From Flavobacterium sp. 9R (GTDB lineage: Bacteria > Bacteroidota > Bacteroidia > Flavobacteriales > Flavobacteriaceae), in assembly GCF_902506345.1 (NCBI RefSeq), contig NZ_LR733413.1, forward strand, positions 787,456 to 851,455: DNA of 64,000 nt, read 5' to 3'. The stretch's first letter is position 1. Each line of letters opens with the position of its first letter. The notes beneath the pieces were generated by a model that did no database searches, was not told the DNA's origin, and saw only the letters and a program-made list of their open reading frames with translations. Below are positions 1 through 6,476 of this stretch, in pieces. The position numbers and the translations under genes are program-made.

Positions 1-38
1 ATTATATCCTTAATTACTATTCTGAAGATTATTCAATA

Positions 39-109
39 AAACTGACAAAGTCCTAATCGGGGCATAAGTAGCTAACTTTGATCGAAGAGAAGGTTCACTT
101 TGTCAGTTT
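39..109. repeat. 13-bp inverted repeat pair
   Basis: The 13 bases at 39-51 (AAACTGACAAAGT) are the exact reverse complement of 97-109. They are separated by 45 bases that contain no gene. It may be a decayed intergenic repeat or the remnant of a small non-autonomous element. No target-site duplication is evident. Confidence 0.45.
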
Positions 110-152
110 GGTTGTTGATTAAAAGTACTTTAAATTTATTTAGCAAATCTAA

Positions 153-214
153 AGGATGGGAGAGGCATCCTTGCTGTGCGGGGTTCGCACAGCAAGATAT
201 AGCGGACAGCGGGA
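153..214 (-). repeat. dispersed hairpin repeat, copy A
   Basis: A perfect 11-bp stem (170-180 with 186-196) encloses the loop GGGTT, which reads AACCC on the minus strand. On the minus strand the flank before the stem reads CGCTGTCCGCTATAT and the flank after it reads GATGCCTCTCCCATC. Copy B at 6366-6429 has nearly the same flanks and the same loop but a different stem sequence that still pairs perfectly. Similar hairpins with variable stems are, as far as I recall, frequent between genes in flavobacteria. The function is unknown. Confidence 0.75.
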
Positions 215-365
215 CAAATCGTGTGGTGCGCAAAAAAAGTGCTGCTCCTTCAACATTAAAAATATATAGTGTCAAATAGAGTATTTTATTTGAGATGTAA
301 TTGCTTAGAGGATTCAATTGTTTCTTTCAAAAAAGACTTTGGCTTCTTGTGGTTTTGATTGGCAT

Positions 366-5626: not shown

Positions 5627-5657
5627 AAGGCTTCTTTCAATCTTTAATTATTAAATT

Positions 5658-6335: not shown

Positions 6336-6365
6336 TTCATTTGATATAGTAAGAGTTAGGAGCTG

Positions 6366-6429
6366 TTTCCTGCTGTCCACTATATCTTTACTGCCGAACC
6401 CCGGCAGTAAAGGATGCCGTTCCCATCAG
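6366..6429 (+). repeat. dispersed hairpin repeat, copy B
   Basis: A perfect 11-bp stem (6386-6396 with 6402-6412) encloses the loop AACCC. The left flank is TTTCCTGCTGTCCACTATAT and the right flank is GATGCCGTTCCCATCA. Flanks and loop match copy A at 153-214 (inverse orientation), while most inner stem pairs differ and remain paired. An outer, weaker pairing between CCTGCTG and CATCAGG can extend the structure. It lies between the UPF0173 gene and the TPR protein gene. Confidence 0.8.
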
Positions 6430-6476
6430 GGCTAGGGTCTAGTGCATTCATCACGCTTTGTTTTTATATTTTAATT

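Follow-up and report, generated by a model that had tools for sequence, protein, structure and literature searches.

The two hairpins examined here, which lie near the left end of the window (the whole 64,000-nucleotide stretch of Flavobacterium sp. 9R that was analysed), belong to the Rfam family "Flavo-1", and on balance this family is probably a high-copy, REP-like dispersed palindrome of flavobacteria with a conserved base and an exchangeable apex, not a small RNA gene. The basal stem, which contains a bulged C and two conserved internal loops of purines, is maintained, partly by compensatory change. The apical hairpin is almost free in sequence and nearly always self-pairing, and between two close species the whole of it has been exchanged at roughly one in five orthologous sites. 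The copies are mostly intergenic, lie close to the 3' ends of genes, favour neither orientation and serve as targets into which other mobile elements insert. In this reading, Flavo-1 is a known family that has been misfiled.

Both hairpins were assigned to RF01705 by covariance-model search, the full model being covered and the gathering score of 42 exceeded in each case. The features of the window are as follows:

138..220, + strand: Flavo-1 copy 1, Rfam match (48.8 bits, E 1.7e-7)
155-220, + strand: the Flavo-1 part proper of copy 1, its left end displaced by an inserted element that ends at 154
171..195, + strand: variable apical hairpin of copy 1 (by inspection)
217..248, + strand: right-hand module of the long form in copy 1, ending in the conserved GCTCC (by comparison of own copies)
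1..154, + strand: right-hand part of the inserted element that interrupts copy 1; beyond the left edge of the window, it extends across an assembly gap
6362..6437, - strand: Flavo-1 copy 2, short form, Rfam match (73.6 bits, E 2.6e-14)
6387..6411, - strand: variable apical hairpin of copy 2 (alignment columns 27-51)
6356..6363, - strand: conserved right end GCTCCTAA of copy 2 (by inspection and the profile of copies)

The two copies stand in opposite orientation, and each carries an apical stem of 11 bp closed by the loop AACCC (GGGTT on the Rfam strand); six of the 11 apical pairs differ between them while both stems are perfect by inspection. The first-pass annotation had reported just this, two hairpins with one loop and perfect 11-bp stems built of differing pairs, and inspection and the Rfam search agree with it. 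Both copies stand where it placed them, except that in the first the left end belongs to the inserted element and Flavo-1 proper begins at 155. The shared flank CTGCTGTCCRCTATATCTT, with up to three mismatches, occurs twice in the window against 0.03 occurrences expected by chance. Copy 2 has an ortholog with an identical apex (C66:27716) in G120, the closest relative found. An N stands directly before the first base of the window, inside the inserted repeat, so that the window starts at an assembly gap; another copy (L108) is alike in this.

That the hairpins form a repeat family, as first proposed, is borne out by the genome, which holds not two copies only but 146 matches at E <= 0.001 (143 exceed the gathering cut-off), scattered and without arrays. 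With their flanks, 136 of the 146 were fetched, and 135 of these were parsed into arms, the arms of one being inseparable; the ten left unparsed are the 11 weakest except C1:621606, and two of these ten (C1:241200 and C1:254637), which lie in a locus fetched later (L287), were kept out of all counts. G120, which is 91-92% identical to our genome across the test locus, has 135 copies, all of which were fetched, with arms that could not be separated in five. When at most 89 candidates were scored per genome, Flavo-1 matches appeared in 26 of 40 surveyed genomes, our own included, and counts within the genus ran from zero (G018, G020) and one (G024) to more than 80. A strict Flavo-1 pattern was found at 70 loci of named genomes, of which 67 are titled Flavobacterium; these loci display 44 kinds of apex, and six standard pairs at the apex base are present in 67 of them. 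Viral contigs gave no match to a similar pattern. In a genome of another family (G036; loci L359, L362, L365, L368, L371, L374 and L377), seven copies have nearly identical cores and only two apex types, and to judge from their sequences they look as if they were amplified recently.

On the Rfam strand, Flavo-1 takes the form of a long imperfect hairpin whose outer pairs are followed by a 1x1 mismatch, two pairs and a 3x3 purine-rich loop and, further inward, by two more pairs, a second 3x3 loop, ATC/GAT, the bulged C and the apex. The RNA minimum-energy fold of 6362-6437 (-) equals the covariation structure exactly, and it is better than the folds of its shuffles only modestly (z -1.9). Folded as DNA, the same segment is predicted to form only the apex and some outer pairs, and the strand opposite the Rfam strand is predicted to fold differently outside the apex. 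Since the basal stem is predicted to be complete in RNA and not in DNA, room is left for an RNA role. The short form extends approximately from CCTAGCC to GCTCCTAA, while the long form is extended by about 25 nucleotides ahead of GCTCC and carries a related block at its left; by eye, these left and right blocks resemble direct repeats. GCTYC lies at most 75 nt from the post-apex GAT in 111 of 136 own copies. It is out of reach in 24 of 135, which include a class GCGTGAGGGAT..CAGCCCGACCC with the outer pairs flipped, by eye, from C-G to G-C. A short reading frame in the long form, also seen by eye, was dropped because the copies differ by 1-nt indels.

Pairing is kept across the copies, as the idea of covarying stems had implied. 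In the 34 own copies that measure 76 nt and have arms of standard length, 97.6% of the pair cells hold standard pairs against 76.2% in shuffles, and the covariation score is 0.574 against 0.166 in shuffles and a maximum of 0.140 for slid partners; none of 500 shuffles reached the observed value on either measure, in a control that leaves the relatedness among copies in place. Changes on both sides were found in 14 of 21 pairs (11.7 in shuffles; 12 of the 500 were as high). At apical positions 1-8, standard pairs are present in 135, 134, 135, 128, 125, 128, 127 and 122 of the 135 parsed copies, and there are 115 distinct apices among them. The loop adjacent to the apex occurs in four types, and left and right arms carry the same type in 130 of 135 copies; the remaining five are partial or ambiguous. 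In 134 of 135 copies, the base of the apex has T at 5' and A at 3', which is the wrong polarity for an intrinsic terminator (a stem and then a T-run), and terminator prediction made no call at either window copy.

Comparison with G120 demonstrates how the apex changes. Flanking sequence identified a G120 ortholog for 100 of the 136 own copies, for 70 of them on both sides; five own copies with conflicting flanks were left out, and one G120 copy paired to two own copies was retained. The 68 both-flank pairs with parsed arms fall into two groups, 54 with an apex similarity of at least 0.81 and 14 of at most 0.71, with none between. At the replaced sites, the flanks are continuous, and another self-complementary hairpin stands in place of the apex, with or without the inner arms (copies 14, 27, 74, 82, 98 and 134); in copies 37, 46, 68 and 82 only the tip was exchanged, and the lower stem was kept. 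The argument for donor copies is weak: one of the two orthologous apices has a close match (>=0.92) elsewhere in the genome that carries it at 11 of 14 replaced sites, but also at 35 of 54 conserved ones, so that such matches do not discriminate between them.

At the sites where the apex was not replaced, paired positions change slowly. In the 66 orthologs whose apices are equally long and differ by no more than 25%, the 822 apical pairs contain 12 double changes, 11 of them compensated, and 34 single-side changes, of which 14 keep pairing; the other 20 leave one allele unpaired, which speaks against the REP-like reading. The 539 basal pairs, taken only from copies with 26-nt left arms and no inserted element, contain 16 single and eight double changes, and all eight doubles are compensated. 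Mean flank identity is 90.4 and 91.7% in 41 cleanly aligned ortholog pairs, and by simple arithmetic a divergence of 9% per site gives an expectation of roughly 135 apical and 90 basal single changes. The observed numbers are lower, so the paired positions are conserved; gene conversion that homogenises the copies could have a share in this. The original suggestion that the element is kept by selection or rebuilt during spread holds in both halves, each in a different part: the basal stem displays compensatory changes, and the apex was replaced as a unit at 14 of 68 sites. The covariation is genuine, and it arises in two ways: the basal fold is under constraint, and the apex is exchanged in blocks.

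These observations can be joined as follows. The basal fold on one strand would be what the host or a trans-acting factor recognises, while the apex may be an extension that tolerates change and is traded, through non-allelic exchange, with other copies and free palindromes, presumably by gene conversion or by template switching, with the conserved arms as anchors. The copies would have spread mainly before the split of the two species and would now mostly be inherited in place. In the proposed comparison of orthologous gaps for presence or absence, neither a clean empty site nor a target duplication, the marks of a MITE, was found when four own sites were compared base by base with the G120 gaps (from 17 G120 gaps and three own gaps fetched and mapped), and this weighs against the REP-like reading. 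At one of the four, G120 retains the remnant of a deletion; at another, it has a Flavo-1 with an insert of 26 bp; at the other two, the gaps differ throughout; none of the four gap loci has an Rfam match.

The position of the copies relative to genes bears on their possible role as RNA. With a simple ORF caller, 125 of 136 copies lie outside any ORF of at least 80 aa, and short ORFs and possible miscalls are among the remaining 11. With the Rfam strand as reference, the neighbouring genes are arranged ++ at 37 copies, -- at 42, convergently at 31 and divergently at 14, with one copy undetermined, while the background gaps of at least 100 nt in the same loci give -- 25, ++ 18, convergent 4 and divergent 17. 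The near equality of ++ and --, together with the convergent excess over background, means that there is no strand preference and that the copies are in excess at gene 3' ends; the median distance is 46.5 nt to adjacent 3' ends and 93 nt to 5' ends. The Rfam strand is on the lagging strand in 77 of 130 copies (p 0.043), a weak bias that depends on an origin and terminus guessed from partial GC skew. No recurrent partner gene was seen, the largest cluster beside the copies being four ORFs, ABC-transporter-like by eye, at four of the 136 copies.

Rfam types Flavo-1 as an sRNA gene and lists its function as unknown. A family of small regulatory RNA genes would explain why the short helices around the conserved purine loops covary and why the minimum-energy RNA fold of copy 2 on the Rfam strand matches the covariation structure. 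In the available text of PMC9723704, several transcribed 5' regions coincide with Flavo-1 hits, yet these hits are in sense or antisense, many of them outside transcribed regions, and are given without clear function. Moreover, the 32 short-form copies have no conserved block upstream (at most ~0.6 bit per position up to 2 nt ahead of TAGCC), so that a common promoter is not seen; the copies have no preferred orientation to genes, and apices are replaced in their entirety. We regard the sRNA-gene typing as improbable. Of the three possibilities raised in the first-pass annotation, a mobile palindrome, an RNA structure or a recombination site, the second is right insofar as Flavo-1 is a known RNA-motif family, while the placement and orientation of the copies are more in keeping with a dispersed palindromic repeat than with an sRNA gene.

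Protection of transcripts from exonucleases has been proposed for some REPs, and Flavo-1 might likewise be a structure in mRNA 3' ends that shields transcripts. The proximity to 3' ends and the convergent excess (31 against 14 divergent, compared with 4 against 17 in the background) agree with such a role. Orientation is again neutral (++ and -- nearly equal), although the basal stem is predicted on the Rfam strand only, and selection against insertion into promoters would create the same positional bias; this role is as improbable, in our estimate, as that of an sRNA gene.

The reading of Flavo-1 as a REP-like palindrome has consequences for earlier work. The family is listed in a table of Weinberg et al. 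2010 (PMC2864571), and an accessible part of PMC9029176 counts it among abundant sRNAs; in the openly accessible texts that name Flavo-1 (subscription papers and supplements lay outside the search), we found neither a function nor a description of a dispersed repeat with an exchangeable apex. The window copies agree with the Rfam family in score and in the conserved paired structure; they differ from the sRNA gene under which it is filed in forming a strand-indifferent dispersed repeat with block-replaced apices that serves as an insertion target. If Flavo-1 is a dispersed palindrome with a swappable tip, counts of it as an abundant sRNA family are misleading, and its RNA-like covariation is due in part to hairpins exchanged as blocks, which calls for caution in RNA discovery by covariation in repeats. 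The family also offers well over 100 sites per genome for watching hairpin replacement and testing palindrome spread. As described in the accessible parts of PMC2817692, PMC3116915 and PMC6006769, the REP, BIME and REPIN elements associated with RAYT are high-copy, palindromic and intergenic, as is Flavo-1, which differs in its greater length, its conserved basal stem with internal loops, its replaceable apex and the lack of any RAYT link found; for REP elements, a GTAG or CGTC tag at one end is characteristic, and these tags are named in the title of PMC3733652.

A further likeness to REPs is the use of Flavo-1 as an insertion site. The element that interrupts copy 1 is ~270 bp long where complete, and no gene was seen inside it. 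In five of 136 own copies, including window copy 1, it is joined to Flavo-1 at the GAT of the left arm, at the same base; at C1:1827320, it is flanked by GATT on both sides and is absent from G120, and a second complete copy with the same junction is present at C1:373918. A different element occupies this base in eight of 135 G120 copies, several of which stand at contig ends:

C64:205964: G120 Flavo-1 copy with insertion element
C47:61061: G120 Flavo-1 copy with insertion element
C21:121: G120 Flavo-1 copy with insertion element
C25:20272: G120 Flavo-1 copy with insertion element
C3:124: G120 Flavo-1 copy with insertion element
C17:129: G120 Flavo-1 copy with insertion element
C57:124508: G120 Flavo-1 copy with insertion element
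C71:31619: G120 Flavo-1 copy with insertion element

The insert at C47:61061, the sole one inspected in full, has CTACCGTCTGGACAC as its inverted ends and is flanked on either side by GATG(T/G)TAGT. Insertion at one fixed base is likewise described for REPs as IS targets in the available text of Tobes and Pareja 2006 (PMC1525189); here the repeat family is another one, and two unlike elements use a single base in two species.

Free palindromes related to the apices also exist. The palindrome ACCTGWCAGGTT..AACCTGWCAGGT was found at ten places in our genome and G120, six times as a Flavo-1 apex and four times free, and the four free loci (3 kb each) contain no Flavo-1 match at E <= 1. In G120, apices of the CCTGACAGG type are carried by C45:45154, C56:17889, C20:17738 and C62:9387, though C62:9387 misses the full pattern and C45:45154 and C56:17889 were paired to their own orthologs by one flank only. 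The own orthologs carry unrelated apices, so the CCTGACAGG-type apices were gained or lost several times. Palindromes of the TTCGAC type, seen by eye as apical inserts in other families (G025 and G028), were left unproven by a pattern search, which found zero to two places per genome. One can also suggest, as a bolder and slightly less probable alternative than either RNA reading, that the basal stem is the docking scaffold of a dedicated hairpin-exchange system, in which a putative enzyme acting on the folded strand (single-stranded DNA or an RNA copy) would swap the apical palindrome as a cassette; if this were true, Flavo-1 sites would collect and trade palindromes from other repeat families. 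For organellar DNA, Allomyces mitochondria have double-hairpin elements with variable hairpins in which pairing is kept, and these are taken as mobile; they share variable paired hairpins with Flavo-1 and differ from it in being organellar.

Returning to Flavo-1 as a REP-like repeat, its mobiliser was sought among RAYT, Y1 transposases, reverse transcriptases and neighbouring genes, and none was found there, which counts against this reading. A REP of a RAYT (TnpA_REP) transposase is suggested by the presence of a RAYT-like gene in our genome (C1:3133471-3134621) and by the high-copy, palindromic and intergenic character of Flavo-1. This gene is, however, flanked by its own inverted pair of a different palindrome, CTGCGCGAATGTCTCTGACTTCGCGC, with which it forms a REP system of its own beside Flavo-1. 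No Flavo-1 match was found in 20 RAYT loci from relatives, taken with up to 1.5 kb of flank at either end, and nine of 25 Flavo-1-bearing relatives have no match to this RAYT (with at most 89 Flavo-1 candidates scored per genome, and with some genomes incomplete). Neighbourhood and co-occurrence thus disfavour RAYT, and its role as mobiliser is very improbable. Likewise rejected were Y1 transposase domains in general (no PF01797 match in five of the 25 relatives) and reverse transcriptase (no RVT_1 match in eight of the 25), some of these genomes being incomplete. The core of the RAYT-linked palindrome, GTCTCTGAC, occurs six times, on both strands, in the fetched own loci.

Integron attC sites, whose boxes are GTTRRRY and RYYYAAC, resemble Flavo-1 in having conserved arms with a bulge beneath a variable terminal structure. 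In our genome, the copies at C1:3298975 and 3302248 bracket a 3-kb segment with genes that, by eye, resemble sppA and a folK/deoxynucleoside-kinase fusion, and in G120 this segment is at another site, also between Flavo-1 copies and with the junctions inside the elements. An attC-like site, at which a folded-strand recombinase would move the flanked DNA as cassettes, is nevertheless hardly credible, because the move is a single event, the consensus has no such boxes by inspection and the copies are scattered and not arrayed. At another own copy (C1:266433), the flanks match G120 in opposite orientations, as from an inversion, and homologous recombination between repeats suffices for both the moved segment and the inversion. 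The regions involved in these rearrangements are C1:3298975-3302324 and C1:266433 in our genome and C71:4472-20168 and C65:10053 in G120. A small repeat, TTCGCCAGTTCGC, was observed within a Flavo-1 arm in G120 (locus L275, C43:20500-27000, near 5650 of the locus) and beside Flavo-1 at C1:915247 in our genome.
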